NCBI RefSeq assembly: GCF_030704535.1
Contig: NC_081819.1
Coordinates: 21,424,001 to 21,488,000, forward strand
DNA length: 64,000 nt
Reading direction: 5' to 3'
Source: Vitis vinifera
Taxonomy: Eukaryota > Streptophyta > Magnoliopsida > Vitales > Vitaceae
This document shows positions 20,680 through 64,000 of the stretch, piece after piece. The notes below the pieces were generated by a model. The model saw nothing but the letters and a program-made list of their open reading frames with translations. It had not been told where the DNA came from and searched no databases. The translations under genes were made by a program, and so were the position numbers. The stretch's first letter is position 1. Each line of letters opens with the position of its first letter.

Positions 20680-22642
20680 ATGGAAATGGCCAGGGAGTGG
20701 GAGCACAACACCCTAATCAATGAGCTAACTCAAGGGAGAGAGATGGCAAACCAGCTCAAAAACCATCTCACTCCATCATCATCCCGCGAAACGCGAGAGT
20801 TCTTAGTCGAGAAGATACTTTCTTCCTATGAAAAAGCGCTTTCAATGCTGAAATGTGGTGGTTTTGTGAGCGAATTGCCTCATTCCCTTCCCGGAAGTAG
20901 CCCAAGGAGCGAAGGGTCCAACCAAGATTTCAAGGACCAAGCAGGCAAAGATGTCTTCAAGAAGAGGTGAATTATGAAGTTTTAGCTCGAAACCAATTCA
21001 TTCATAGTACTTAATCATGTGATTTGAAGCTGAATTTGATCTGACTTTGGCCTGGGGTTCCCGGGATTACTCCATGATGCAGAAAAACATTGCCTAGGTG
21101 GACCGAGCAAGTGCGCGTCACCATCGGAACAGTGCCAGAAGGCCCTCTTGACGATGGGTACAGCTGGAGAAAATATGGACAGAAAGACATCTTGGGAGCC
21201 AATTTTCCAAGGTGAGAAGCTAACCCTCTCCCCAAACTTTTAGCTATTCTGAATAAGATACAGCAGATCCACCTCAAAAAAATCTCTTTTCTTATCTAAA
21301 GTTAGCAACCCCTTTCGCTTTGTGACTCATCCTCTCATCTTTCCTATCTATTCATGGCCTTTACTCCTATCATTGGGCATCCCACAAAGCCACCCCTTCT
21401 GTACCACTGACAGGGATCATACATACCATCAAAAATACATAATCTACAGATACATGCACACACAAGTCCTTAAATGAAGGCATAGTTCCAAGCTCAAAAA
21501 GCAAAATTTGAACTTATCTGCAGATAAGCACACAATTTGTTCTGGGGTTGGTTCAAATTGAAGAGAGTGGCTCATCTTTTCTTCTTATTTAACTCAAGGC
21601 GCTCAGGAATCCAATTCATATGAGCTGTCACTTGTAGTGACAACCGTCTAACAATCCACCTTTCAGCATTAAAAATCAAGCCATGGTCCCATATTTCCAT
21701 TGGCTGATCATGAACTACATGCATATGGCCCAACAAACGCCCATTCGAATGAAATTATTGCTACTTTTTGTCTACTGAGCATGCGTAGATACCGAGGCCC
21801 AGATGTTTATAAGCGCATGCTCACCTAACAATTCCCTCATGCAAATAATCTTGTATCTATCAATATCTCTTATCCTCTTCTTTAAAGTAGAAGACAAGAA
21901 ACTTTAAATGATTGAGCTGTGTGTGGTTGCAGAATGATGAGACCTGTACACTGAATTCTTTACTAGTTTGATGTAAATTTAACAAAAATTTTCTTGTATG
22001 CATTGCAGGGGATACTTCAGATGTACTCATAGGCATGCGCAGGGCTGTTTGGCAACCAAACAAGTTCAAAGATCAGATGAAGACCCCTCAATCTATGAGG
22101 TAACATACCGAGGAAGGCATACTTGTATTCAAGGCTCTCGTGTAGCGCCGGCCTCGGTCGTGCTAGTGGACAAAGAAGAGCCCATTGAGAAGAAAGTCAG
22201 TTACGAGCCGGAGCAGCAGCAGCAGCAGCCGCAGGAGGCTGAACAAATAGTGTCGGGCTTTGGGACAGGCCTTAAGGTTAAGACTGAGGACTTGGACAGT
22301 AGGGAGAAGATATTCCCATCATTCTCCTTCCCTTTGTCAGATTCGGAAACCGTGGACAAAATTTTTGCTGAATCCATGATTGAAAACAGCTTGATGGGCG
22401 GTTTTTCCCCGTCGTTTTTGTCTCCGGCCACATCTGAATCCAACTATTTTCCGGTGTCGCCATGCCAGATGAACAGCTTTGGAATGGGGCACAGTGTGTA
22501 CACTACAGAATCAGACCTGACGGAGAACATCTCAGCCCCAACTTCAGTCACCAATTCGCCTATTGGGGACTACAGTTTCCCGCTGGATCCTGTGGATTTT
22601 GATCCAGATTTTCCATTTGATAATCCTGAATTCTTCCAATGA
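20680..22642 (+). CDS. WRKY transcription factor, group III (WRKY41/53-like)
   Basis: Gene model join(20680..20966, 21083..21211, 22009..22642), 349 residues, GT-AG introns. The WRKY domain has WRKYGQK at residues 124-130 and a C-x7-C-x23-H-x1-C zinc finger (C144, C152, H176, C178), which defines group III. Intron 2 falls in phase 2 inside the Arg of the FPR|GYFRC segment, the conserved R-type intron of WRKY domains. The N-terminal region (residues 1-75) is helical and typical of the WRKY30/41/46/53 clade. The C-terminus carries a Gln run and an acidic, Pro/Asp/Phe-rich tail suited to activation. Members of this clade act in the nucleus in salicylate-linked defence and senescence. The gene is intact. 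Orthology to one Arabidopsis member is inferred only. Confidence 0.95.
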
Positions 22643-26763: not shown

Positions 26764-27660
26764 TTAGTAGTTAGTAATTTTTGCCGAAGAAATAGATGAG
26801 CTTGCACATAAGAATCTGCCATTGATGGAAGGTTTCTCGATACAGAAGATATGGGCTTCACAGACATCGTCTATGTGTATGATTGGGACTTTTCCGAGCA
26901 ACTCCTCTAGGAACTTTAGGGCTTGATACCGGTTTTCATGGTCGGTAAGCTGAGATATAAACAAATCTACGCTTTCTGGTGTGTAAGGTAGAAGAGTCTC
27001 CCCTCCCACAAGTCCATAAGCCAGTGAAACTACCTCCAATCCGCCGGTCTTATTCTCCCCATGGCTCAAAATTTCTTTTTCAGCCACTGTCTTTGAATGC
27101 GCGTAGTCCTGTAATCAGGACAAATTAATATTCTCTCTCAACTGTTTGGATTTCAAGTAATATTTTATTGAGCATTAGAGTTAAGGAAAAACTTGCCTTT
27201 AGATGAGAATTACCATGAGAGAATGGAAGATTAAGAGGGGTCCAACAAGATTCATCCATGGAGTCCTTGAAACCAGTCTCGTCATCTTTTAATGGGGCTG
27301 CAGCCACCACGGAAGCAGTGTAGATTACTCGCCTCACAGTTGCTGAATTGATGCAAGACACTGCAATGCTCTTTGCCCCAGCCACTGCAGCTTCTGCTGT
27401 GTTCTTGTACTGTTTTACAGAAATTGGATTACTTATAATTAAATATAAGTATATGTGGATGAAAATGATGGGAAATTGGGACAAACCTGAGAGTCCTCAA
27501 TGTGTTGCAAGGGGGTGGCAACATGGAAAACAAACTCACACCCTTGAATGGCCTGCTCGAACTCATCAGGATTGTAAATGTCGGCTTTAAACAACCTCAG
27601 TCTCGTGTCAGCATTAGGCAAGCTCTGGAGGAGTCCCACCTTGCAGCTCCTGTTCTCCAT
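26764..27660 (-). pseudogene. Anthocyanidin reductase-like SDR, unit A (broken copy)
   Basis: Exon remains: complement(join(26764..27108, 27197..27409, 27487..27660)), open for 243 codons. Compared with unit B, exon 1 after MENRSC is fused directly to KVGLLQ of exon 2. This in-frame deletion removes the rest of exon 1 (the TGGAGYIGS Rossmann motif) and all of intron 1. The last coding part stops at TAA (26764-26766) after ITNY, where a foreign AT-rich repeat begins, so the end of exon 4 and the last exon are missing. Ser of TAS and Tyr/Lys of YAHSK remain, but without the NAD(P)H-binding loop an active reductase is not expected. Intron 2 is GT-AG. Intron 3 begins with GC (AAG|GCAAGT), as in unit B. 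A TATA box is preserved 98 bp upstream, so it may still be transcribed. Confidence 0.88.
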
Positions 27661-27757
27661 TGCGACTACTCGTTGTTTTTCAGAAGAAAAAAAAAACCAA
27701 GCACTCAAAAGGGGTGAATGGTGGTTGATTTCTGATCATTTACATGTGTGACATTTG

Positions 27758-27766
27758 TATATATAA
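27758..27766 (-). promoter_or_regulatory. TATA box of SDR unit A
   Basis: Minus-strand TTATATATA about 98 bp upstream of the ATG, at the same relative place as in unit B and within homologous flanking sequence. Confidence 0.6.
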
Positions 27767-27999
27767 CATGAGTTGTCCCATTTTCTTGTTTTCTAGGTAG
27801 TACACATGATAGTGCACCATCATGATACAACCATAAGAAAGAAATGGATGATGGTACTGATAAATTGGGTGTCACTGATTAAAATTTGTCCGTCAACGCA
27901 AGCGTTGATTGGGTCAAAGCTAAAAATGAGTTGTCCATCAACATCCGTTGGTGAACGCAAGCATTGACTGGGTCAAAGCTAAAAAATGAATTATTTCTC

Positions 28000-28130
28000 T
28001 ATCGAGAGTTGAACCCTGACAAAAGGTTGGGCAAGCACCCACCTTAGTGTCGGGGCAAGTGTGCCCCTTACAAATTATGTAGATAAGGGGCACGTTTGCC
28101 CCGTGTTTGCCCAATATACATATATATATT
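28000..28130. repeat. SINE-like / GGGGCA-rich repeat in unit A flank
   Basis: Contains GAGTTGAACCCTGAC (B-box-like on the minus strand) followed by inverted GGGGCAAGTGTGCCCC-type sequence. A longer version occurs in unit B (32341-32525), so it predates the A/B duplication. Confidence 0.5.
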
Positions 28131-28487
28131 AAAAAATTTTATATGCACAAAATATTAAAACAATATTTTAAATAATGGATTAATTAAAATTATTTTATAA
28201 TTAAATGAAAAATTTTCATTTAATTGATTAGTAAAAAGTATTTAATATAATTAGTATATTAATTAAATATTAAAAAATTAAATATTTATTATTATTTATT
28301 TTATATCATTTAATATAATTAAATTAAATATATCATAATTTTAATATTAAATATATTTTAAAATTAGTTATATTATAATCAAATATCATAATATTATTAT
28401 CAAATAATATTTGATGTAATTAATAATAACATACACTTATAAAATTTATATTTTTTATTGACGCATATAATATTATCATCAAATATG

Positions 28488-28528
<41 letters not shown>

Positions 28529-29040
28529 TTCTTTAATAAAAACAACTTTAAAATATCTATTATAGTTGTAATTTTATTTTTAAAAGTTTTATTTTACATT
28601 TTTCATAAGTTTTAATAAATTTTAGGTCAATTGATCCATCGATATATCTGTAAAATCAAACTATCAATATATCCATGATTATCAATATTTTTTTTTTCCT
28701 TTTATGAGTTTTGATAAATTTAGATATTATTTCTAAAATATTCAATAGATACTTAATGATATTTTTGTGTTTTTAAGTTCTATAATGAAAATAACTTTAA
28801 TATATATATATCAATCCTTCTTTTTCATTATTTTTGAGTTTTTTTTAATATTTTCATAAATTTTTATAAATATTTATCGATATTTTCTGATATATTATAA
28901 TATATCCATAAAATTGTATTATCATATATTCATCTAAACCAATATTTTGAGTACTGATGTAGTATAATTCTTCTTTTAATTTTCCTTTGCGTGTGCTGGT
29001 GACTTTATTGTTCTTCTTCAAAGACACAGAAAAAAAATTC
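28131..29040. repeat. AT-rich dispersed repeat with GATATATC motifs (unit A copy)
   Basis: AT-rich block with TCGATATATCTGTAAAATC-type motifs. It is homologous to 32526-34080 in unit B (which has an extra ~690-bp insert) and appears reverse-complemented at 51890-52290 inside the broken PPR gene. It includes a (TA)n microsatellite at 28493-28524. No coding content. Confidence 0.75.
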
Positions 29041-30084
29041 ATATGTGGGATTCAGAGTATATAGCCTATAAATTGGAAGCCGCAGTGAAAAAACCATGGT
29101 TTCTTTGCAGTAGTAGTCGTGTGGGATTGTTCAGTGTTCATGGCCTATGAATTCAATACCACAACGAATTTTGAACTCAGATTTTATTCCTCTCCTTGTC
29201 CTGCTCATGAATATTGTTTTTTCTTGTACTACATATCACATCAAATATGCATAACACAATTCATTTCGGTAATGGTTTCGTTGGCAGAGCCTTTTTTGTG
29301 CTTGTACGTAATTCAAACCTAACTAAACATAGATAAACATGGAAAAAGGGCTGGTGAAGATCACTCCATCTTACTTCCACAGGTGATAAAATCTTTCCAT
29401 ATCAATAGAGGTGCAAGAAAGAATGAAAAACACCTGATAAAAAAAAAACTTATGATTTAAAGTGGTGAAACATGAAATGTTTTAAGAGTCGGTAGTTATA
29501 TTTGGTTTTATCTTTTATAATATTCTTTATGGTATAAAGAAAAAAATTCTCTCATTCGTAAGTATAAGCATGATTGACCGAACCACGTTAAAATTATTTA
29601 TATTTTTATACGAATGGTTTTATCTTTATTTTAAAACTTTAGAATATTTTATGGTTTATTATAATTTTTTTTCATAAAAATTTATTTGTGTCTAAAAATG
29701 TAATAGCAAAATGAAAATTTAATTAGTGTTAACTTATTTTTTGTGTTTTTAGATATTTATTAAAATTAACTTTTATTAAGAATATTTTATTTTCAATTAT
29801 TATCTAAATTTGTGTAATTATATTTTAAAACGATATCCATTTTGAAAAAATTATCAAACATATTTTCTACATCTGAAAAACAATTATTTTTTTCCCGATT
29901 ACATGCTCTACCCAATATATAGATATTATCTAGCATATTAAGAGGTTGACATCCATAGACTTTCATCTTATGATATCTTATCTCCTTGATAAAATAAATC
30001 TTTAGAATAAGTCATTTGTTGGAAGTGAATCATATAGAATGGACCAACAAGAAGAAGACAAAAACCACCCCATTCGAAGCTCTT
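29041..30084. other. Distal upstream flank of unit A
   Basis: Near-identical to 34115-35170 beyond unit B, starting from the shared phrase GTGGGATTCAGAGTATATAG and ending at GAAGCTCTTTTACT. No gene is visible. The homology marks the outer limit of the A/B duplication unit. Confidence 0.7.
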
Positions 30085-30660
30085 TTACTTTATATGCAAT
30101 TATCTTTATATTTTTTTTATTATATATTTGCATATAATTATTTCTTGTATTCACATAATTTAAATTTACAAAAAGAGATCATCACCTTATTCCCCTCTTT
30201 AGGTTGGATTAACCTAAGTTTTTTTTAACAAAAATAATATAAAAAGAAAGTAGAAAGAAAAAAAAATTAATTAAAATTAATAAATTATTTTTACATGCTA
30301 TTTCAGATTCATTTAACTTATTTTAACTTTTTAATATGAAAATCAAATGGTCTAAAAATACACAAGTTTGTAACTAATTTAAATTATATTTTATTTTCTT
30401 TTGAATTTTTCACGATATAATCAAATACAAGAAAATCATTTTTCTTAATATTTTTTTCTTTTGTTGGCGCTTCCCACGACCTAACAGAACCTAACCTAAC
30501 ATAACCTAATGTTATTTGTCCTCTTCATGATATTTTTCATAGTACTACATATTACAAAATATGCATGACACTTCCTCATGGTACTGGTCTCTGTGTACAA
30601 CCTTTTTTGTGCTTGTAGTTCCACCCTAACTAAAAATAAACAAACAACATGGAAAAAAGA
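30085..30660. other. Junction between SDR units A and B
   Basis: Begins with the third copy of the ~115-bp AT-rich repeat (to about 30190), then AT-rich DNA. TAACCTAACATAACCTAA near 30.49 kb is a short degenerate repeat. The last ~120 bases are the 3' UTR side of the unit B gene. Confidence 0.6.
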
Positions 30661-32005
30661 CTACTGCAGATCACCCATCTGCCTTCCACAGCTGATACAA
30701 TCTTCCAATATCATATTGGTATCACATTTATACTCAAACCCCTCCTCAATTAGCTTTGTTGATCCCCACTTAATCTCTTTTTTTGGCCCAATTTTCAAAT
30801 ACCTGAAACCAAAATGTAAGCACTGATGATCAGTTCCAAAAATTGTAGCAAATTACATACAATATTATAGCTTCTTACTCTGCTTTTATATGAAGTTGTG
30901 GATAATTTTCGTGATAGTAGTTAGTAATTTCTGCAGAAGAAATACACGAGCTTGCACATAAGAATCTGCCATTGATGGAAGGTTTCTCGATACAGAAGAT
31001 ATGGGCTTCACAGACATCGTCTATGTGTATGATTGGGACTTTTCCGAGCAACTCCTCTAGGAACTTTAGGGTTTGATACCGGTTTTCATGGTCGGTAAGC
31101 TGAGATATAAACAAACCTACGCTTTCTGGTGTGTAAGGTAGAAGAGTCTCCCCTCCCACAAGCCCACAAGCCAGTGAAACCACCTCCAATCCGCCGGTCT
31201 TATTCTCCCCATGGCTCAAGATTTCTTTTTCAGCCACTGTCTTTGAATGAGCATAGTCCTGTAATCAGGACAAATTAATATTCTCTCAACTGTTTGGATT
31301 TCAAGTCCTATTTTATTGAGCATTAGAGTTAAGGAAAAACTCGCCTTTAGATGAGAATTACTATGAGAGAATGGAAGATTAAGAGGGGTCCAACAAGATT
31401 CATCCATGGAGTCCTTGAAACCAGTCCCGTCATCTTTCAATGGGGCTGCAGCCACCACGGAAGCAGTGTAGATTAGTCGCCTCACAGTTGCTGATTTGAT
31501 GCAAGACACTGCAATGCTCTTTGCCCCAGCCACTGCAGCTTCTGCTGTGTCCTTGTACTGTTTTACAGAAATTGGATTACTTATAATTAAATATAAGTAT
31601 ATGTAGATGAAAATGATGGGAAATTGGGTCAAACCTGAGAGCCCTCAATGTGTTGCAAGGGGGTGGCAACATGGAAAACAAACTCACACCCTTGAATGGC
31701 CTGCTCGAACTCATCTGGATTGTAAATGTCGGCTTTAAACAACCTCAGTCTCGTGTCAGCATTAGGCAAGCTCTGGAGGAGTCCCACCTTGGCATGATCA
31801 TCTGCAATTCACCATTGCAAATCTGCTGAGAGAAAGAGAGGAATTGATAGAGAAATAGGGAGAGATGAGGAAAGGGAGAGTATATACGCAAGTTCCTGAG
31901 TGTTGCATGGACTGTGTAGCCCTTCAGCAAAAGCTTCTTCACAAGGGAAGATCCGATATAGCCGGCACCTCCTGTAACACAAACCCTGCAGCTCCTTTTC
32001 TCCAT
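30661..32005 (-). CDS. Anthocyanidin reductase-like / DFR-like NAD(P)H-dependent reductase, unit B
   Basis: Gene model complement(join(30661..30802, 30879..31258, 31345..31557, 31635..31801, 31888..32005)), 339 residues, the usual size for the DFR/ANR/vestitone reductase group of extended SDRs. TGGAGYIGS (residues 11-19) is the nucleotide-binding glycine motif. Ser128 (YTAS), Tyr168 and Lys172 (YAHSK) form the catalytic triad at the positions known for grape DFR. These enzymes reduce flavonoid-type carbonyl or enol substrates in the cytosol; the actual substrate cannot be told from sequence. Intron 3 has a GC donor (AAG|GCGAGT); the others are GT-AG. All exons keep frame. It is the only one of the three tandem copies with both the intact motif set and a canonical catalytic serine. 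A bona fide ANR is less likely than an ANR-like paralogue. Confidence 0.92.
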
Positions 32006-32100
32006 TGCGACTAGTCGTTGTTTTTCAGAAAAAAAAAAACCAAGTACTCAAAAGGGGTGAATGGTGGTTGATTTCTGATCATTTACATGTGTGACATTTG

Positions 32101-32110
32101 TATATATAAC
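32101..32110 (-). promoter_or_regulatory. TATA box of SDR unit B
   Basis: Minus-strand GTTATATATA lies about 96-105 bp upstream of the ATG. The surrounding ~100 bp is nearly identical to the unit A promoter. Confidence 0.65.
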
Positions 32111-32340
32111 ATGAGTTGTTGCATTTTCTCGTTTGCTAGGTAGTAGTAGTACACATTATAGTGCAGCATCATGATAAAACCATAAGAAAGAAATGGATGA
32201 TGGTACTGATAAATTGGGTGTCACTGATTAAAATTCATCGGTCAACGCAAGCGTTGATTGGGTCAAAGCTAAAAATGAGCTGTCCACCAACGGATGTTGG
32301 TGAACACAAGCATTGATCGGATCAAAGCTAAAAAATGAGT

Positions 32341-32525
32341 TATTTCTCTATCGGGAGTTGAACCCCTGACAAAAGGTTGGACAAACACCCACCTTAAAAT
32401 CGGGCCAAGTGTGCCCCTTATTAATTATGTGGTGCCCACCTTAGTTTCGGGGGAAGTGTGCCCCTTATTAATTATATTGCACCACGGCACACTTGCCCCA
32501 ATACTAAGGTGGGTGTTTACCCAAT
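32341..32525. repeat. SINE-like / GGGGCA-rich repeat in unit B flank
   Basis: GGGAGTTGAACCCCTGAC is a good B box on the minus strand (GGTTCAACTCC). It is followed by a duplicated AAGTGTGCCCCTTATTAATTAT segment and an inverted copy, so the piece can fold. The block is longer than in unit A, which points to a later local duplication. Confidence 0.55.
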
Positions 32526-34115
32526 ATATATATATTTTAAAAGTTTTCATATGCATAAAATATTGAAACAATACTTTAAACAATGGATTAATTAAAATTA
32601 TTTTATAATTAAATAAAAAATTTTCATTTAATTGATTAGCTTTTAATATCATTAGTATATTAATTAAATATTAAAAAATTATATATTTATCATTATTTAT
32701 TTTATATCATTTAATATAATTAAATTAAATATATCATAATTTTAATATTAAATATATTTTAAAATTAGGTATATTATAATCAAATATCACAATATTGTTA
32801 TCAAATAATATTTGATGTAATTTAATAATAACGTACACTTATAAAATTTATATTTTTTATTGACGTATATAATATTATCATCAAATATGATAAATTATAT
32901 ATATAGTAATTTATTTAATAAAAACAACTTTAAAATATCTATTATACTTGTAATTTTACTTATAAGAGTTTTATTTTACATTTTCATAAGTTTTAATCAA
33001 TTTTAGGTCAATTGATCCATCGATATATCCGTAAAATCGAACTATTGATATATTAATGATTATCAATATTTTTATACTTGCCATAGATATGTTGATGTTC
33101 CAAACTTTCAGGAGTTTTCTCTTTTTAATTGTGCCGATATTTCAGGGTGCCAGGACCTTTACGCCATGACAAAATTCATGCTCAATTGAAGGCACGGGCC
33201 AAACGAGCCCAATTTTACATGGCCAGAAGCCCAACACCCAACACAAATTCACGTGACTAGTTGAGGAACGCCCTATCCATGAATAGGAGAGCTTACACCC
33301 GAAGCAACCCTTCGACTTAGGATGGGTGGCTTGTACCTTGTGACCTAATCTTTTTTTTGTGCCATATGTGCACATAGATTTATATTATAAATACAATTGA
33401 TCGAAGGGATGGATGGCTTGTACCGTGTGACCTAATCTTTCCTAATCTTTTTTTGTGCCATATATGCACATGGATTTATATATATTATAAATAAAATTTA
33501 TTACACTTTACCTCCCATCTATACCGTATTTTGCACATTATCCCCTTGAATTCAAAATTAAGTAATGTACCCTCCATATTATATAATTACATATAATGTA
33601 CATTTTTTAAATAACGATGTTATATTTTTGGACCAAAAGCACATGTATTTTTCACGTGATCAAAAGTAATAGGGTCATATTTTTTAAAACCCCCCAAAAC
33701 TCCAACCAATCCTCCTCTTCTTTCATTCTTCTTATATTCACCAATATTTTTTGATATATCAAAGCAATATTTTTTTTTTCCTTTTATGAGTTTTGATGAA
33801 TTTAGATATTATTTCTAAAAAGTTCAATAGATACTTAATGATATTTTTGTGTTTTTAAGTTCTATAATAAAAATAACTTTAATATGTATATCGATACTTC
33901 TTTTATTATTATTTTAAAGTGTTTTTATAACATTTTTATCAATTTTTTATATTCACCGATATTTTTTGATATATTATAATATATCCGTAAAATTGTATTA
34001 TCATATATTCGCCGAAACCGATATTTTCATCTGATGTAGTATAATTCTTCTTTTAATTTTCCTTTGCGTGTGCTGGTGACTTTATTGTTCTTCTTCAAAG
34101 ACACAGAAAAAAAAC
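32526..34115. repeat. AT-rich dispersed repeat with GATATATC motifs (unit B copy) and insertion
   Basis: Same repeat as 28131-29040. About 33072-33765 has no counterpart in unit A: it is a ~690-bp insertion with higher GC and a local tandem duplication around GTGACCTAATCTTT...GTGCCATATGTGCACAT (two copies, about 33320-33395 and 33407-33490). No coding domain was recognised in the insert. Confidence 0.7.
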
Positions 34116-35392
34116 TCATGTGGGATTCAGAGTATATAGCCTATAAATTGGAAGCCGTAGTGAAAAAGCCATGGTTTCTTTTCAGTACTAGTCGTGTGGG
34201 ATTGTTCAGTGTTCATGGCCTATGAATTCAATACCACAACGAATTTTGAACTCAAATTTTATTCCTCTCCTTGTCCTGCTCATGAATATTGTTTTTTCTT
34301 GTACTACATATCACATCAAATATGCATAAGACAATCCATTTCGGTAATGGTTTCGTTGGTACAGCCTTTTTTTGTGCTTGTATGTAATAAAAACCTAACT
34401 AAACATAATAAACATGGAAAAAGGGCTGGTGGAGATCACTCCATCTTACTTCCACAGGTGATAAAATCTTTCCATATCAATAGAGGTGCAAGAAAGAATG
34501 AAAAACACCCGATAAAAAAAAAAAAAAAACTTATGATTTAAGGTAATGAAACATGAAATGTTTTAAGAGTCAATAATTATGTTTGGTTTTATCTTTTATA
34601 ATATTTTTATGATATAATGGAAAGATTCTCTTATTCGTGGATACAGACATGATTGATCGAACCACATTAAAATTCTTTATATTTTTATGTAAATTGTTTA
34701 ATCTTTATGTTAAAACTTTAGAATGTTTTTCTAAAATATTTTATGTTTTATTATAATTTTTTTTCATAAAAATTTATTTGTATCTAAAAATGTGGTAGCA
34801 AAATATAAATTTTATTATAGTGTTAACTTATTTTTTGTGTTTTTAGATGTTTATTAAAATGAACTTTTATTAATAATATTTTATTTTCAATAATTAACTA
34901 TATTTGTATAATTATTTTTTAAAATGATATCCATTTTGAAAAAATTATCAAACATATTTTCTACATCTCAAAATCAATTTTTTTTTTCCCGATTACGTGC
35001 TCTACCCAATGTATAGATATTATCTAGCATATTAAAAAGTTCACATCCATAGACTTTCATTTTATGATATCTTATCTCCTTGATAAAATGAATCTTTAGA
35101 ATAAGTCATTTGTTGGAAGTGAATCATATAGAATGAACCAACAAGAAGAAGACAAAAACCACCCCATTTGAAGCTCTTTTACTCTCACATTCAAACACCT
35201 AGGCCTCGACATCCACAAATAAAAGAGATAAAACTATGAGCCTGCAAATTTAAAGTATAAAAGAGATAAGTTGAATGAAGGGAACAACAAAAAGGAAAAA
35301 GAGAGGTGAGGAGTTCTTGAACTATCCATTCCCACCTCATGATTATTGATATTTCCAATGTCATTGGATGTTTTGAAAGACTTCAAATGTCA
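34116..35392. other. Distal upstream flank of unit B and start of unit C spacer
   Basis: Homologous to the unit A outer flank to about 35170, then diverges into CTCACATTCAAACACCTAGG. The section 35133-35220 is also echoed at 37680-37760 upstream of unit C, so all three units share the same upstream boundary sequence. Confidence 0.65.
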
Positions 35393-36834
35393 CTATTGAA
35401 GATCACCCATCTTCCTTCCACACTTGATACTATCATCCAGTATCATACTGGTATCATATTTGTACTCAAACCCTTCCTCAATTAGCTTAGTTGATCCCCA
35501 CTTAATCTTTCTCTTTGGCCCATTCAAATATCTGAAACCAAAATTTAAATACACAGTAAGCACTCAATTTTATACAGGACACATGCATATATATGATAGC
35601 TTCAATTCTTACTCTGGTTTGATATCAAATTGAGGGTGATTCTTTTGATAGTAGTCGGTGATTTCTGCTGAAGAAATATAGGAGTTTGTGCATAAGAATC
35701 TGCCATGGATTGAAGGTTTCTCCATACAGAAGATATGGGCTTCACAGACATCATCTATGTGTATGATTGGAATCTTTCCCAGCGACTCCTCCAAGAACCT
35801 GAGTAATTGGTAGTGGTATGGGTTGTCTGTGAGCTGAGCTATCAGTACAGCTACGCTGGCAGGCGTGTAAGACAGAAGAGTGTCCCCACCCACAAGCCCA
35901 CAAGCTAGGGTCACCACCTCCAACCCACCATTATTATTGTTGCCAAAGCTCAAGATTTCTTTCTCAGCCAGTGTCTTAGAATCTGTGTAGTCCTATTTCA
36001 CATATCATCACACCAATTAGCCTCATAAATTTGAGTTCTTCTCGGGATTTTTTCTGTAAAAGTTTTCTGATCTTTTTGTTCTGGAAAACCGAAAATTATT
36101 TTAACAAACAGTTACCAGAGAAGGTTACTTGCCTAAGTAACTTACCTCGACAAAAGAATTAGTATAAGGAAGTGAAAGGTTCGGAGGGGTCCAACAAGAT
36201 TCATCCATGGAGTCCTTGAAACTAGACCCGTCATCTGTCAAGGGGGATGCAGCCATGACGGTGGCAGTGTAGATGAGTCGCCTCACTGATCCTGATTTAA
36301 TGCAAGACATGGCAATGCTCTTTGCCCCAGAAATTGCAGCTTCAGTGGTGTTCTTATACTGTCAATTTTCATGGAAACAATCAAACTACTTATAATAATA
36401 TACATATAAAAATAATTCAAGGCCATAAACAAGTCTATTTGATCTGATTGCCTGAAAGCCCTCACTGTGATGCATGGGGGTGGCCACATGGAATACGAAT
36501 TCACACCCTTTGATGGCCTCCTCGAACTCATCAGGATTGTAAATATCGGCCTGAAACAGCTTCAGCCTCGTCTCCGCGTTAGGGAAGCTCTGGAGGAGTC
36601 CCACCTTGGCATGATCCTCTGCAATTCACCATGGCAAATCTGTTGAGAGAATCAAGAGAGGAACATATAGAGAAATAGGGAGAGATGGATCGAGATGGAT
36701 CAGAAAGGGAGAGTACCCATGTTTCTGAGCGTTGCATGGACTGTGTAGCCCTTCTGCAAAAGCTTCTTGACCAGGTAAGAGCCAATGTAGCCTGAGCCTC
36801 CTGTAACACAAACCTTGCAGCTCATTTTCTCCAT
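35393..36834 (-). CDS. Anthocyanidin reductase-like / DFR-like reductase, unit C (Ser128Thr)
   Basis: Gene model complement(join(35393..35531, 35613..35992, 36146..36358, 36452..36618, 36717..36834)), 338 residues, five exons of the same sizes as unit B except for one codon fewer in the last exon. TGGSGYIGS (11-19) and YTDSK (Tyr168, Lys172) are intact, but the catalytic serine position reads Thr128 (codon ACC in YTAT), where units A and B have Ser. Intron 2 starts with GC (TTTCAG|GCAATC), while intron 3, which is GC in A and B, is GT here (GTCGAG|GTAAGT). This is the most divergent of the three copies. The reading frame is open throughout and a TATA box is present, so the gene is probably expressed. 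Threonine may support weak activity or a changed role; the substrate is unknown. Confidence 0.9.
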
Positions 36835-36927
36835 TACAAGTCTTTGTTTTGCAGCACTAATCATGATTCAGTCTCCTCTGATTTCCTGTATCTCTTATTA
36901 TACAATTAAGTGGCCAAAAAAGTAAGT

Positions 36928-50939: not shown

Positions 50940-51450
50940 AAAAATTGGAATTTTGGAAAATTTATTTGAATATGGCATTTAAAAAATAAATAAATTTGGA
51001 AATTGGAATTTCGGAAAATTTATTGGAAGATGACATTTTAAAAATTAAATTTGGAAATTGGAATTTTTGGAAAATTTATTTGCATATGGCATTTTATAAA
51101 TTAAATTTGGAAATTTGAATATTTGGAAAATTTATTTGAAGATGGAATTTTATAAATTAAATTTGGAAATGAAATTTTTGGAAAATTTATTTGAATATGG
51201 TATTTTAAAAATTAAATTTGAAAATTGAAATTTTTGGAAAATTTATTTGAAGATGGTATTTTAAAAATTAAATTTGGAATTTTGAAATTTTTGGAAAATT
51301 TATTCGAAGATGGCATTTTTTAACAAAAATTAATTTTGGAATTTTGGAAAATTATTTCGAGAATGAAATTTTGGAAAATTATTTAAAAATTGAAGTGAAA
51401 AAAAAAATTATTTGAAAGTTTGGAATTTTGAAAATTATTTTAAAAAAATA
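50940..51450. repeat. Degenerate tandem array, ~56-bp unit
   Basis: About eight or nine copies of a unit reading GGAAATTGGAATTTTTGGAA then AATTTATTTGAAGATGGCAT, ending TTTAAAAATTAAATTT. Spacing is 54-60 bp and units differ by small substitutions and indels. No function is evident. Confidence 0.88.
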
Positions 51451-51889
51451 ATTTGTGAAAACGTGTGAGCATAAAGGATCAAAAAGGAATATGGGCATGT
51501 ATGCTCCAAGGATGGCCACCAAATGTTAATTGTGTATGCAGAAGCTTAAGATTTTTATAACAGGTTATATATAATAAAAAATACACTTTGTTGACTTCTT
51601 TTTGCTTGTTTCAGCCCTTGGTCCTTCAATTGCATGAATAACCTCAATGAACTCTCAACTTGCCCATTCCGAGATAATCCAAAAATGAAAGCATTGCAAT
51701 ATCCTACATCCATGTGATCCATTTGATCAAACACTTGTGACATCTCAGATGTGCAAGAACGCTTCCCGTACATATCAACAAGTGCGCTACTGACGCATTT
51801 ATCTGACACAAGACCTTGCTTTATCACATAACCATGAATTAGTATCCCATAACCAAATCCTCCTAATCTCTAACAACCAAGGATGAAAA

Positions 51890-52290
51890 TATCGGTAATC
51901 ACGGATATATCGGTATTTCGATTTTACGGATATATCGGAGATATATCAACAAATATTTTGAAAAAAAATATCGGTAAGCTTAAAATTGTTAAAAACTCAT
52001 GAAAATGTAAGGAAAACCTCATAATAATATAATTAGAAGTATAATAGACATTTTAAAGTTATTTTATTAAAAATTTTGATATATATATAACATGATTTAT
52101 CATATTTGATAATAATATCGTATGCATCGATAAAAATGTGAATTTTATAAATGTACATTTATTATTAAATTACACCTAATATTATGATATTTGATTATAA
52201 TATGTCTAATTTTAAAATATATATTAATATTAAAATATGATCCATTTAATTCAATTGTATTAAACAATATAAAATAAATTATGATATATA
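51890..52290. repeat. AT-rich GATATATC-motif repeat, inverted relative to SDR units
   Basis: Reverse complement of the block found in the A and B flanks (28310-28700, 32700-33080), including CGATTTTACGGATATATCGG and GATTTATCATATTTGATAATA. It lies between the downstream PPR fragment and the inverted repeat, so it is one of the insertions that broke the gene. Confidence 0.75.
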
Positions 52291-52296
52291 TATTCA

Positions 52297-53378
52297 CCAC
52301 CCTTATTTATGCATTCTCAAAGTTTCATCAATTTCATCACACACTTGCTACTTTCTCTCAGATGCTCACCCGAGGCCTCAAGCCTAACAATCGTGCCTTC
52401 CCTAGTGTTGCTAAGGCCTGTGTTGGACTATCTGCCCTGAAGCCTGGCCGACAGGTTCATGGCATTGCCACGAATCCTAATTCCCTTAAGAGGTATATTG
52501 AAAGTCTATTATTAGTCCTAGAGTAAGGCACTCTATTTAGAGAGTAGGACAAGATGAGTAAAAGGTAGAGGCATAGCAGTTCACATGTATATTAAATGCA
52601 TGTGGTTAGTTAGAGTGCTTTGGTTGCGACTTTTAAGAGGTTTTGAACCTGAAAGGTATCGACACACGCAGGTCAACGAAAGTCAGGGGATCGCTTACCA
52701 TCTGGGCTAACTTGCCCTTTGATATATTATGTGCAATAAATTTATATATACTTAAATTCATTATATAAAGAAAATATTAAAAGAAATATAATTTTTATAT
52801 TTTTGGTAATTAATTAAAAGATTTTGCATTTAATTATAAAATAATTATAATTAATTTGCTCTTTAAAATATTCTTTTAATATTTTTTTTATATAATGAAT
52901 TTAAGTATATATAAATTTATTGCACATAATATATCAAAGGGCAAGTTAGCCCATATGGTAAGTGGGTGAACCCAAACCAAAAGGTTTGGGGTTCAAATCC
53001 CCTGACTTTCGTTGACCCTTGTGTCGATACCCTTCAGGTTCAAAACCTCTTAAAAGCCGCAACCAAAGCACTCTAACTAACCATATGCATTTAATATACA
53101 TGTGAACCAAAGAAGATTGAACAAAATAATCTGAATCAAACCCAGCTACTGCTACGCCTCTACCTTTTACTCATCTTGTCCTACTATGTCTTACTCTAGG
53201 ACTAATAATAGACTTTCAATATACCTCTTAAGGGAATTAGGATTCGTGGCAATGCCATGAACCTGTCGGCTAGGGAAGGCACAATTGTTAGGCTTGAGGC
53301 CTCGGGTGAGCATCCGAGAGAAAGTAGCAAGTGTGTGATGAAATTGATGAAACTTTGAGAATGCATAAATAAGGGTGG
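52297..53378. repeat. ~500-bp-arm inverted repeat with captured PPR sequence and SINE-like part
   Basis: Left arm about 52297-52795, right arm about 52868-53378, with an AT-rich loop of about 70 bp. Each arm carries PPR coding sequence (LIYAFSKFHQFHHTLATF), then GGTATATTGAAAGTCTATTA, then a tRNA-like SINE part. In the right arm the plus strand shows TTAGCCCATATGGTAAG (A box) and GGTTCAAATCC (B box) at about 52945-52998; the left arm has lost its B box. The left arm keeps ~45 bp of PPR sequence that the right arm lacks, and the right arm has a ~40-bp insertion near 53108-53148. The arms are otherwise closely similar. Confidence 0.85.
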
Positions 53379-53598
53379 AGAAAGAGAAGACATTGGGCTT
53401 AGGAACCAAATCAAGAACAAGAGTTGCATCCGCAAAGCACATGTTAATAGCATAATGCGATAGAAATTTGGTGGCGAGATGGGTATCGTTGAAGAGTCTA
53501 GTCTTGAGGATGTGGGCATGAGCTTGACGTGTTTCAACATTGAGGATGAGAGGGAGCTCTTGATCAACCTTCCCCTTGGGATGCATTGTATGGTTCAC

Positions 53599-56340
53599 TT
53601 CCTCAGCACCAAATGCATTTTAAATGGAGATAAAAACATGATTAGGCATCTCAAAGGAGAACCAAAACAGAGCCGAAGAAAGAGGGCCAAAACTAGACAT
53701 AAAATACAGTAAAAGTAAAAAAAAAAAATCGCAGATTCCACAAACAGGCACAACATATAGTGTCCACAATCGAGCATCAAAATGAACTCAAAATCAATAG
53801 GAGGTAGGACATAACAATGTGAAGTAGAGAAATATGGAGCATGTTGTAATCATACCTGGACAAAACCGGTGAGCCCCTCCTCTACTTCTTCTTCAGTTCC
53901 AAATTTCCTTACTCCAGCTCCTTCCCCTTACAACTCTTTTTTTCTCTCAAAACCTTCGAAAAATCTCCCACCTGTGAACAACCTTCTTCTTCTCTCGCTT
54001 GCTCTTTTTTTTTTTTTTTTGTTTATCCGCCTCTCCTAGCTTCCTTTGCGAGCTTCTAACGGCTCCATTACTGACCCTTTAACAAGTCCCCATTTTCAAC
54101 CACCACTATGGCAAGGTGGGCATATGTCCCATGCAACTCGTTTTCTAGAAATCGTCCCCCACTCCAAAACGAAATGATGTCCAATTCCTCCCGGGTGCTC
54201 CTTAAAGGTGGCAGGAAAAATTAAAATAAAAAACTATTAAAATGTAATAAAACAATGATAATAAATAAATAAATAAATAAATAATCCAATGATCTAAAAA
54301 AAAGGGGAGTCCACATAGTAGTTCGATAAATATTATTTATCACAAAAAACGTGGTTTCGATGAAAAATAAATTAATAATAATTTATTTTTGTCTTATTAA
54401 TGTCAAAAGCATGTGAAGTCGTAGCGCCAATTTCCACAAGACAAGATAATATTGAGTTGTCTTATTGATTGGATGCTACCATGCTACAAAATATTTTAGA
54501 CAATTAATAATTTTTTTTTCTTTTATCAAATAAAGTCTACGACCCTTTATGGAGTCCACGTATAAGAGCATAACTTGTAATAAAGTGCTTAAAAAATGTT
54601 GGAAAAAAAATATTTTTAATTGTTTTTATTATTTTATTTTCAAAAACATCTCTCCGTATCATGCCATATCTTAACTAAATCCAAAAAAGTAATAATAATA
54701 TTAATGTAGGTGTTTAATCTAGGTTATATGGTCCCCGCGTTTATTCCGTTTTAGACCTACGCGGAAAATAATTTTGGGTTGGGCCCCATTATTGGGTTGT
54801 CCTCAGAAGAGTTGTACTGAGTTTGGGGTGTAGGGGTCTTAGGGTGTCAAAATTTTTAATTTTTTTTTAAATATTTTATTTTGGAAAATATTTGTATTTT
54901 TCAGATCTTGACTAAATCGAATGGCTATAATTTTTTAGATTAATAAATTTGTCACATTATGAATAGATAATTAATATGAGTAAGTTAATTGTTGGACCAA
55001 CTACTTTTAATAATTAAATTTGCCCATAATTACTATTGGTGTGGGAGTTAGAAAATAAGTTGAAATGACAAGAATAATAATTTATTTTGGAATAAAAAAA
55101 GGTAAAAAGCAAAAATCAACTACATAGTTTTGTGATAGTCGTAAACCTAAAGGCAAAGAATCAAATCCTTATTAATGAAGATTTGTTTTCCAAAATCTCG
55201 AGGGGTTCATTTACTCCCATAAGCCTTATGTGAGTTCACTCTAGTCACTGACGGTGTTATTTTTATTTACGATCAAATTAAATTTTGAATGAAAGAAGAA
55301 AAGCTAGAAGAAGAGTTGTTTTCTCAAATCTAATAAGTTATAGCCCTTTTGGAAGTGATTTTGAGAGAGAAATATTTTTCTAATGTTTTGAAGTTTTTTC
55401 TTGTGAAAATTAAAGTGCGTTTGACAGTGATCGTATGAAGTGTTTCTAATATTTTTAATACTTAAAGTATGAAAATTTTCAAATGTTATAAAGATTAAAA
55501 ATACTTCATAAAATCACAATCAAACGCACTCTTAAATATGTAATAAATTTTTTAATATCATTTTTATAATTATGAAGAATCACTTGAAATGATTCTTTAA
55601 AAATCACTTATCAAGTGATTTATTTCAAAAGTACTTTTGAAAAACACTCCAAACTAAAAATACTTTAGTTAAAATCATTTAGACTATTAAAATAAAGGTT
55701 AATTTCATTTACAATAAGAGTACGTTTGGTGGTCTTTTTCTTGAAAGTGTTTTTTAAAATGTTTTTAAAAGAATCATCTATCAAATGTTTCTCCAAAAAA
55801 TAGTACAAATGTTTTTCAACTTTTTAAAAATGTTTCCTAATTTCTACCAAATGTATAAGTTTACCTCAAAAATACTTTCTAAAAGTGTTTTTGTCAATCA
55901 AAAGCCACCATTAATTTCAAATTTTGTTAGTTACTCCTATAAATGTGTTTCGTACATAATTTTTTTTTTTAATTATTAAATACATCTACTTAAATTTTTT
56001 TCATTTAAAATATTTCTAAAATTAATTTTATAAATTTATATGAGTGTTAATCCACGAAATTTGAATGATTGGATGTATTTACATCAAACATTAGGGTTTA
56101 AGTAAATTTAAGCCCTCAAACTGGGCTAAACCTGTACTGGGCCTAAGCATATAGGCCAGGAAGAAAGGAGTAAAGGTTTGGGCACAACTCGAACTGCTAA
56201 CCCAGGCCCTGGCCCAAAACACTTCCAATTAATACCCGCCTAGGTTCTGATCCAGGCTGTAATTTAAGTTGGTGATTCAACAGCAAGTATACTATTTCGT
56301 CCCAAATTCTAGAATTTGATGACTGCTTCATTAATTGAAT
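53599..56340. other. Upstream flank of PPR pseudogene and AT-rich intergenic DNA
   Basis: 53.6-54.1 kb is probably the former PPR promoter/leader region (pyrimidine-rich on the plus strand). The rest is AT-rich with an (AAAT)n run (about 54262-54285) and no gene. Confidence 0.5.
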
Positions 56341-61223: not shown

Positions 61224-61252
61224 AACCAGGTTCCTTCTGAACTGGGCGAATA

Positions 61253-64000
61253 ATGGCAACAACCAACGGCAGTATGGTGAGTGTGTCTCAACCAGCAATT
61301 CCCATTTTCAAAGGTGAGTGCTATGAGTTTTGGAGCATCAAAATGAAGACTTTATTCAAGTCTCAAGATCTGTGGGACTTGGTTGAAAATGGCTATCCTT
61401 ATCCGGACGAAGAAGCTAGGTTGAAAGAAAATACGAAGAAGGACTCCAAGGCATTGTTCTTTATTCAACAGGCTGTACATGAATCAATCTTCTCAAAGAT
61501 TGCAGTAGCAACCACAGCAAAAGAGGCGTGGACAACCTTGAAAACTGCATTTCAAGGTTCCTCTAAAGTGATCACGGTGAAGCTCCAGTCCTTGCGTCGT
61601 GACTTTGAAACCTTGCACATGAAAAATGGAGAGTCAGTGCAAGATTTTTTGTCAAGAGTTGCTGCTATAGTTAATCAAATGAGGTCGTATGGTGAAGATA
61701 TTCTTGATCAAACTGTCGTAGCAAAGGTGTTAAGGAGTTTAACGCCTAAGTTTGATCATGTAGTTGCAGCCATTGAGGAGTCTAAGGATCTGTCAACCTA
61801 TTCATTTGATGAGCTCATGGGATCCTTGCAATCTCATGAAGTGAGGCTGTCCAGAACAGAGGAGAAGAATGAAGAAAAGACATTTTACACGAAGGGGGAG
61901 ACATCAGATCAGAAGAATGGAGGCAGAGAAGCTACTGGTAGAGGACGTGGCAGAGGAGGTGCTCATGGAAGAGGTGGACGTGGCAGAGGCCGAGGTGATG
62001 CACAAGGTGACCAAAGGCAGTCAACTGAGAAGAGCAGAAACAAGAGTAATATCCAGTGCTACTACTGCAAGCGGTTTGGACATGTTCAAGCTGAATGTTG
62101 GAAGAAAGAAAGGCAAGAAAAACAAGTTAACTATGTCGAGCAAGAGGAAGATCAAGTCAAGTTGTTCATGGCCTATAATGAAGAGGTAGTATCTTCCAAC
62201 AATATTTGGTTTTTGGATAGTGGATGTTCTAACCACATGACAGGGATAAAGTCACTCTTTAAGGAGCTGGATGAATCACACAAGTTGAAGGTGAAACTTG
62301 GTGATGACAAACAAGTGCAAGTGGAAGGCAAGGGGACCGTGGCAGTAAACAATGGTCATGGTAATGTAAAGCTCCTTTACAATGTGTACTTTATTCCTAG
62401 TTTGACTCAAAACTTGTTAAGTGTGGGGCAACTTATGGTTAGTGGATACTCCATTTTGTTTGATGGTGCTACTTGTGTGATCAAAGATAAAAAGTCTGAT
62501 CAAATAATAGTTGATGTTCGTATGGCCGCAAACAAGTTGTTTCCTCTTGAAGTGTCAAGTATAGAAAAGCATGCTCTTGTTGTTAAAGAGACTAGTGAGT
62601 CTAATCTGTGGCACTTAAGGTATGGTCATCTAAATGTCAAAGGGTTGAAGTTACTAAGTAAAAAGGAAATGGTGTTTGGACTACCTAAAATTGACTCGGT
62701 GAATGTGTGTGAGGGCTGTATTTATGGGAAACAAAGCAAGAAACCATTCCCTAAGGGAAGGTCAAGGAGGGCATCTAGTTGTCTTGAGATTATACATGCT
62801 GATCTATGTGGTCCTATGCAAACTGCTTCATTTGGTGGCAGTAGATATTTTTTGTTGTTTACAGATGATCATAGCAGGATGAGTTGAGTGTATTTTCTTC
62901 AATCAAAGGCAGAGACTTTTGAGACCTTCAAGAAGTTCAAAGCATTTGTAGAGAAGCAGAGTGGCAAGTGCATTAAGGTGCTGCGGACTGACAGAGGTGG
63001 AGAGTTCTTATCAAATGATTTTAAAGTGTTTTATGAAGAGGAAGGCTTGCATAAAGAGCTGACTACTCCTTATTCACCATAGCAAAACGGTGTGGCTGAG
63101 AGGAAGAATAGAACGGTGGTTGAGATGGCTAGAAGCATGATGAAGGCCAAGAACCTTTCAAACCATTTTTGGGCAGAAGGAGTTGCTACAGCTGTATACT
63201 TGTTGAATATTTCTCCAACCAAGGCAGTGTTGAATAGAACTCCATATGAAGCTTGGTATGGGAGGAAACCTTGGGTAAGCCATTTAAAGGTTTTTGGTAG
63301 TGTTGCCTATACGTTGATTGACTCACATAACCGTAGTAAGCTTGATGAAAAATCAGTAAAGTGCATCTTTATTGGTTATTGCTCTCAATCAAAAGGATAT
63401 AAGCTATATAAACCTGTTAGTGGTAAGATAATTGTTAGCAGGAATGTGGTGTTTGATGAAAAAGCTAGCTGGACTTGGCGTGTAAGTGAAGACGGTGCTC
63501 TTGTGGAGATTTCAAGTGAAAGTGAAGTGGCACAGAGTGAAGATCAGCAGCCTTCTATTCAGATTCCAGCAAGTCCAACTCCCTCTCATTCACCCAGTTC
63601 CCCAAATTTGAGTAGCAGCAGTTCTTCACAATCTTCAGAGGAAACCCCTCCAAGGAAATTCAGATCTTTAAGGGACATCTATGAGACTACACAAGTCTTG
63701 TTTGTAGCTGATCCAACAACCTTTGAAGAAGCAGTGGAGAAGGAAGAATGGTGCAGTGCTATGAAAGAAGAAATAGCTGCCATTGAGAAGAATGAGACTT
63801 GGGAACTGGTGGAGCTTCCTGAAGACAAGAATGTGATAGGTGTTAAATGGGTTTTCATAACCAAGTACTTAGCAGATGGTAGTATACAAAAGCACAAGGC
63901 ACGGTTAGTGGCAAAGGGCTATGCACAGCAACATGGAGTTGATTATGATGACACCTTCTCACCAGTTGCACGGTTTGAAACAGTAAGGACCTTATTAGCC
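61253..64000 (+). pseudogene. Copia gag-pol polyprotein, interrupted by two stops
   Basis: One frame from ATG 61253 to the window end. Gag has a DUF4219/UBN2-type capsid region (residues 1-200), an RGG-rich linker and a CCHC zinc knuckle (C269 to C282, C-x2-C-x4-H-x4-C). Protease has LDSGCSNHM with catalytic Asp322. The integrase zinc-binding segment shows H454, H459, C486 and C489, followed by HADLCGPM and TDRGGEF from the DDE core and NGVAERKNR around the third acidic residue. TGA at 62885-62887 and TAG at 63080-63082 interrupt the integrase without shifting frame. The start of the RVT_2 reverse transcriptase follows from about 63.72 kb (GVKWVF, KARLVAKGYAQ). Both stops look like single transitions (from TGG and CAG). 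The rest of the frame appears continuous. Confidence 0.92.

Follow-up and report, generated by a model that had tools for sequence, protein, structure and literature searches.

A potential natural hairpin from a probable local inverted duplication in a dead glyoxalase-PPR pseudogene of Vitis vinifera

Many small-RNA genes of plants are held, in the standing model, to be born when a target gene is duplicated in inverted orientation, but the copying step is seldom visible. In this study, we analysed a stretch of 64,000 nt of Vitis vinifera DNA (the window), in which PPR coding sequence stands in two inverted arms inside a broken PPR gene. The question raised by this locus is how the second arm arose, and whether the repeat now acts as a source of small RNAs or is only decaying. 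The features of the locus are listed in Table 1.

Table 1. Positions in the window of the inverted repeat, the transposon-like element, and the pieces of the host pseudogene
Feature	Position	Strand	Remarks
Additional part of the host PPR gene, past the insertions	51558-51869	-	PF01535, 34.7 bits (gathering score 25)
Transposon-like element, left part	51878-52292	+	73-75% identity to 28282-28691 and 32681-33080 (minus)
PPR-coding stretch, left arm	52287-52421	+	PPR_2, profile 4-48, 25.8 bits (gathering score 30); still has the 42-nt block that the right arm has lost
Left arm	52293-52786 (494 nt)	+	Read as the inserted inverted copy of 52870-53382
Spacer (loop)	52787-52869 (83 nt)		Transposon-like sequence
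Transposon-like element, right part	52787-52922	+	Spans the spacer and runs into the inner right arm; blast matches to both copies
Right arm	52870-53382 (513 nt)	-	Original orientation; runs uninterrupted into the PPR pseudogene on the right and the element on the left
Chimeric glyoxalase-PPR open frame	53191-53619	-	Stop codon falls inside the right arm
PPR-coding stretch at and just beyond the right arm	53281-53397	-	PPR_2, profile 1-39, 25 bits (gathering score 30)
Glyoxalase (At5g48480-like) fragment	53515-53619	-	PF22656, 39.3 bits (gathering score 27); PDB 1xy7, E=8e-05; in frame with PPR

Geometry, folding, and PPR content of the inverted repeat

The first-pass annotation had placed a hairpin with arms of approximately 500 bp at 52297-53378, and these limits were correct to within a few bases (52293-53382). 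The loop that it described was present, but its size was 83 nt and not approximately 70 bp. When one arm was aligned with the reverse complement of the other, 425 of the 439 aligned bases were equal and 14 were mismatched (96.8% ungapped identity). Five indels of 42, 42, 32, 11, and 2 nt lie between them; blocks of 42 and 32 nt are missing from the left arm, and blocks of 42, 11, and 2 nt are missing from the right arm. The 32-nt block that the left arm lacks can fold into a small hairpin of its own (-16.5 kcal/mol).

Computational folding, which had been proposed as a check, gave -777.5 kcal/mol for the plus strand and -792.1 kcal/mol for the minus strand, and the longest uninterrupted helices were 83 and 108 bp, respectively. 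When the plus strand was put through 30 dinucleotide shuffles, the mean was -250.3 kcal/mol (sd 8.5) and the minimum -265.5 kcal/mol. Because the fold energy lies far beyond this minimum, chance is excluded and the inverted repeat is a real structure. In the fold, 972 of the 1096 nt were paired, which is the long self-complementary stem that characterises endoIR-siRNA loci. It had also been claimed that a transcript crossing the locus would form long double-stranded RNA, and a long hairpin is indeed predicted for the RNA of either strand. A scan of the whole window for inverted pairs (exact seed of 14, length of at least 60) returned 16 pairs, of which the top four (97-98%) all belonged to the hairpin described here; those ranked after them reached 84%.

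PPR coding sequence was found in both orientations, as had been supposed. The PPR_2 matches lie in the frames 52281-52502 (+) and 53215-53619 (-), with 25.8 and 25 bits, respectively, both below the Pfam gathering score of 30, and both arms also matched PPR chains in the PDB. The left-arm piece 52299-52502 (+) matched 31 PDB sequences, the best being a synthetic PPR-DYW protein and PLS9-PPR, whereas 53215-53514 (-), from which the block is lost, matched 34, the best being a P-type design. The arms of this foldback thus resemble a protein-coding gene, as those of MIR161-like loci do. The recognisable PPR sequence is restricted to the outer part of each arm, and the inner part consists of other DNA, including transposon sequence. 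The Pfam profile search of 52949-53170 gave no match; the stretches at approximately 53090-53149 (-) and 53030-53060 (-) are presumably additional PPR codons.

Host pseudogene, interrupted element, and proposed origin of the left arm

As read from its sequence, the host is a dead PPR pseudogene on the minus strand, interrupted by stop codons, shifts of frame, and inserted DNA. PPR pieces stand on both sides of the hairpin, and the right arm is uninterrupted with the PPR frame, which bears out the earlier view that the hairpin sits within the same broken gene. The minus-strand PPR pieces in 53191-53619 and 51558-51869 are in different frames. The latter, at 51591-51869 (-), matched 27 PDB sequences, and the best were again the synthetic PPR-DYW protein and PLS9-PPR. 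Judged by the best PDB match, two of the three fragments are PLS-type and one resembles a P-type design; PLS type is favoured for the host gene but is not settled. We take the host gene to resemble At1g20230 and a grapevine protein.

Because the host frame opens with an At5g48480-like glyoxalase fragment, the pseudogene is chimeric. This fragment forms the first 35 residues of the frame 53191-53619, and no PPR is present there. The designed repeat protein 7udk had an E-value below that of 1xy7 for the same fragment, but no single stretch of that match passed, and it was taken as chance. In the minus-strand direction, the DNA upstream of the fragment is rich in purines, and we read a possible 5' splice site near 53858; the chimera may once have had a leader exon. 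A bacterial-type promoter scan of 53300-54600 gave 2 sites against 4.0 expected, and this type of model is of no use for plant genes.

The transposon-like element has two other copies in the window, at 28112-28691 and 32523-33080 (minus), in which blast places both element parts approximately 45 bp apart. The right part was matched in the pairs 52800-52922 versus 28112-28237 and 52808-52917 versus 32523-32633. After the left arm was omitted, the joined flanks aligned across the junction to both copies with scores of 605 and 608, whereas 20 shuffles of the joined flanks did not exceed 295. With identical scoring, the left arm itself reached 62-76 against the element copies, which is the level of its shuffles (n=20, up to 91). 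The gap between the flanks was at most 2 bases in the copy at 32 kb and 23 bases in the copy at 28 kb. Because omitting the left arm brings the flanks together as in the other copies, we conclude that the left arm was inserted into the element. The order read from these alignments is that the PPR gene holds the transposon-like element and the element holds the left arm, with the caveat for the element history that the copies are merely 73-75% identical to the element at the PPR locus. Both copies belong to a single tandem duplication (27638-28692 with 31983-33073); they therefore probably go back to one insertion and count as one witness. The tandemly duplicated stretches that bear them extend over 26765-36854 and are up to 96.9% identical.

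The right arm consists of element sequence at its inner end and of PPR sequence at its outer end, so it was the neighbouring DNA that was copied, in inverted form. We consider it probable that the locus is a local inverted duplication, produced by a DNA copying error in an already dead chimeric glyoxalase-PPR pseudogene, and that it is now passively decaying without a regulatory role. The starting point would be a transposon-like element inside this pseudogene. A strand under synthesis would have changed template near 53382, taking up the opposite strand, been extended back to approximately 52870 (about 510 bp, comprising the element end and the PPR N-terminal region), and then re-entered the element at about the point of departure. 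A microhomology-mediated template switch or fold-back repair is the candidate route. The strand would have left the element and come back to it at almost one point, and a short TTC is shared at the left switch point; these features are compatible with a template switch or fold-back repair, but prove no mechanism. Studies of fold-back duplications and of inverted, templated insertions that arise at DNA breaks, in the parts available, likewise describe nearby DNA copied in inverted form, apparently in organisms other than plants (PMC11724301, PMC3907307, PMC7467729). The yeast templated insertions are mostly approximately 5-34 bp according to the available text (PMC11724301), whereas the insert at the PPR locus is approximately 494 nt.

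The two arms now differ by 3.2% and five indels. The right arm lost its PPR block after the copying, because the left arm keeps it (PPR_2 to profile position 48 versus 39); the profile match polarises this indel alone. The block losses in both arms offer no hint of selection keeping the pairing, although a long stem remains. At usual plant substitution rates, 14 differences in 439 positions would correspond to an age of a few million years if no gene conversion took place between the arms. The order that can be read at this locus is a dead chimeric gene, a transposon in the gene, an inverted copy in the transposon, and decay. Drift and locus death are perhaps the commonest fate of such duplications, and a new inverted-duplication locus needs a nearby working promoter, according to the available part of Fahlgren and others (PMC1790633).

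Possible role of the locus as a hairpin RNA

If the locus were transcribed, the RNA would form a near-perfect hairpin of approximately 500 bp, suited to Dicer-like enzymes. The default expectation from the features above would still be a passively decaying locus with no regulatory role. By analogy, the best reading is that of a potential natural hairpin, a raw proto-hairpin of the type from which MIR161 and related siRNA loci are proposed to descend. The foldbacks of miRNAs are shorter and less perfect than a stem of approximately 500 bp with 96.8% identity. Arabidopsis MIR161 and other young MIRNA genes are likewise described as inverted duplications of a protein-coding piece, and the target family of MIR161 is PPR; MIR161-type genes are short foldbacks with defined miRNAs, whereas the stem of the PPR locus is closer to the proposed siRNA-like first stage, as far as the available sections of PMC1790633 go.

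An active endogenous inverted-repeat siRNA locus, with putative 21-24 nt Dicer-like products acting on intact PPR relatives, would share the same origin and differ in its present-day role, and we regard this as possible but unlikely. The long near-perfect stem on both strands speaks for such activity, and inverted repeats of like size yield siRNAs in soybean (PMC3534067) and Arabidopsis (PMC4687873), according to the accessible text of both articles. For example, the soybean Gm14 aquaporin NIP6-1 inverted repeat is also made of a gene fragment, with arms of 621 bp, a spacer of approximately 1,000 nt against 83 nt at the PPR locus, and intact relatives elsewhere; approximately 400 unique small RNAs are annotated on it, 40 of which match an intact relative (PMC3534067, in part). 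Similarly, the Arabidopsis endoIR-siRNA loci IR71 and IR2039 have a very long self-complementary stem and need no RNA-dependent polymerase; they are transcribed and diced by DCL2/3/4 (PMC4687873, in part). Any small RNAs of the PPR locus are putative. Phased siRNAs come in large part from PPR genes, which rank among their largest sources and perhaps second among all families, grapevine included, in the available part of PMC7960677, and the grapevine small-RNA paper PMC5050227, in its accessible portion, mentions PPR merely within a list. However, each arm lacks blocks present in the other with no sign of maintained pairing, PPR sequence covers just part of each arm, and the hairpin sits in a dead gene. 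Inverted repeats are also frequent, making up 6.2% of the moss genome, and those of moss also make small RNAs, according to the part of PMC2600652 at hand.

This locus is only loosely analogous to the known PPR targets of siRNAs. The siRNA-targeted PPR clade is the restorer-like (RFL) clade. It is P-class in the available text of PMC5138203, in which none of the small-RNA terms looked for was found. In the available part of PMC1790633, miR161 and miR400 target a clade within the PPR family, whereas two of the three fragments of the host gene look PLS-type. We also considered a very young proto-MIRNA or endoIR-siRNA locus, with its copying still readable through the interrupted transposon and aimed at PLS-type and not restorer-like P-class PPR genes; this more specific reading is quite doubtful. 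Among the titles and abstract openings of the literature, no PPR-derived natural hairpin was evident beyond MIR161 and the soybean cases, which is no proof of absence. If small RNAs arise from the PPR locus, it would give the inverted-duplication model a datable starting point; if none arise, it would be one among many silent inverted duplications.

Other readings of the repeat and features of the neighbourhood

A foldback-type or gene-capturing DNA transposon, with long terminal arms and captured glyoxalase and PPR fragments, is very improbable. Two gene fragments are fused in one frame and transposon-like DNA is present, as this reading would have it, but the right arm passes into the PPR frame without a boundary, the flanks of the element close up once the left arm is omitted, and blast of 51400-54400 against the 64-kb window found no second copy of the arms. 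In a foldback transposon both arms move as one insert; because the right arm is uninterrupted with the PPR frame, the left arm alone is the insert here, and this candidate was rejected. An assembly or sequencing artefact was set aside as having a negligible chance, for although inverted duplications are a known class of error, a duplicated read would give near-equal arms, whereas these differ at 14 positions and five indels, each missing blocks found in the other. The preferred reading is still a local inverted duplication.

Within the inner right arm, 52920-53030 (+) carries motifs that we read, by their consensus, as tRNA-like Pol III boxes; it is possibly a SINE remnant and holds the 32-nt hairpin block absent from the left arm. 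ARAGORN found no tRNA in the window, and Rfam at gathering scores found no known RNA family there. The PPR pseudogene is bracketed by two tandem UDP-glycosyltransferase genes (PF00201; 46721-48572 and 56340-58176) with 94.8% identical DNA, and the other UDP-glycosyltransferase copy showed no PPR piece next to it. A minisatellite at 50942-51319 (56-bp unit, 6.7 copies) adjoins the pseudogene. The window also contains a WRKY transcription factor coding piece at 21983-22642 (+) (PF03106) and a copia-type retrotransposon frame at 61241-62887 (+), which runs from gag to pre-integrase (PF14223, PF22936, PF13976).
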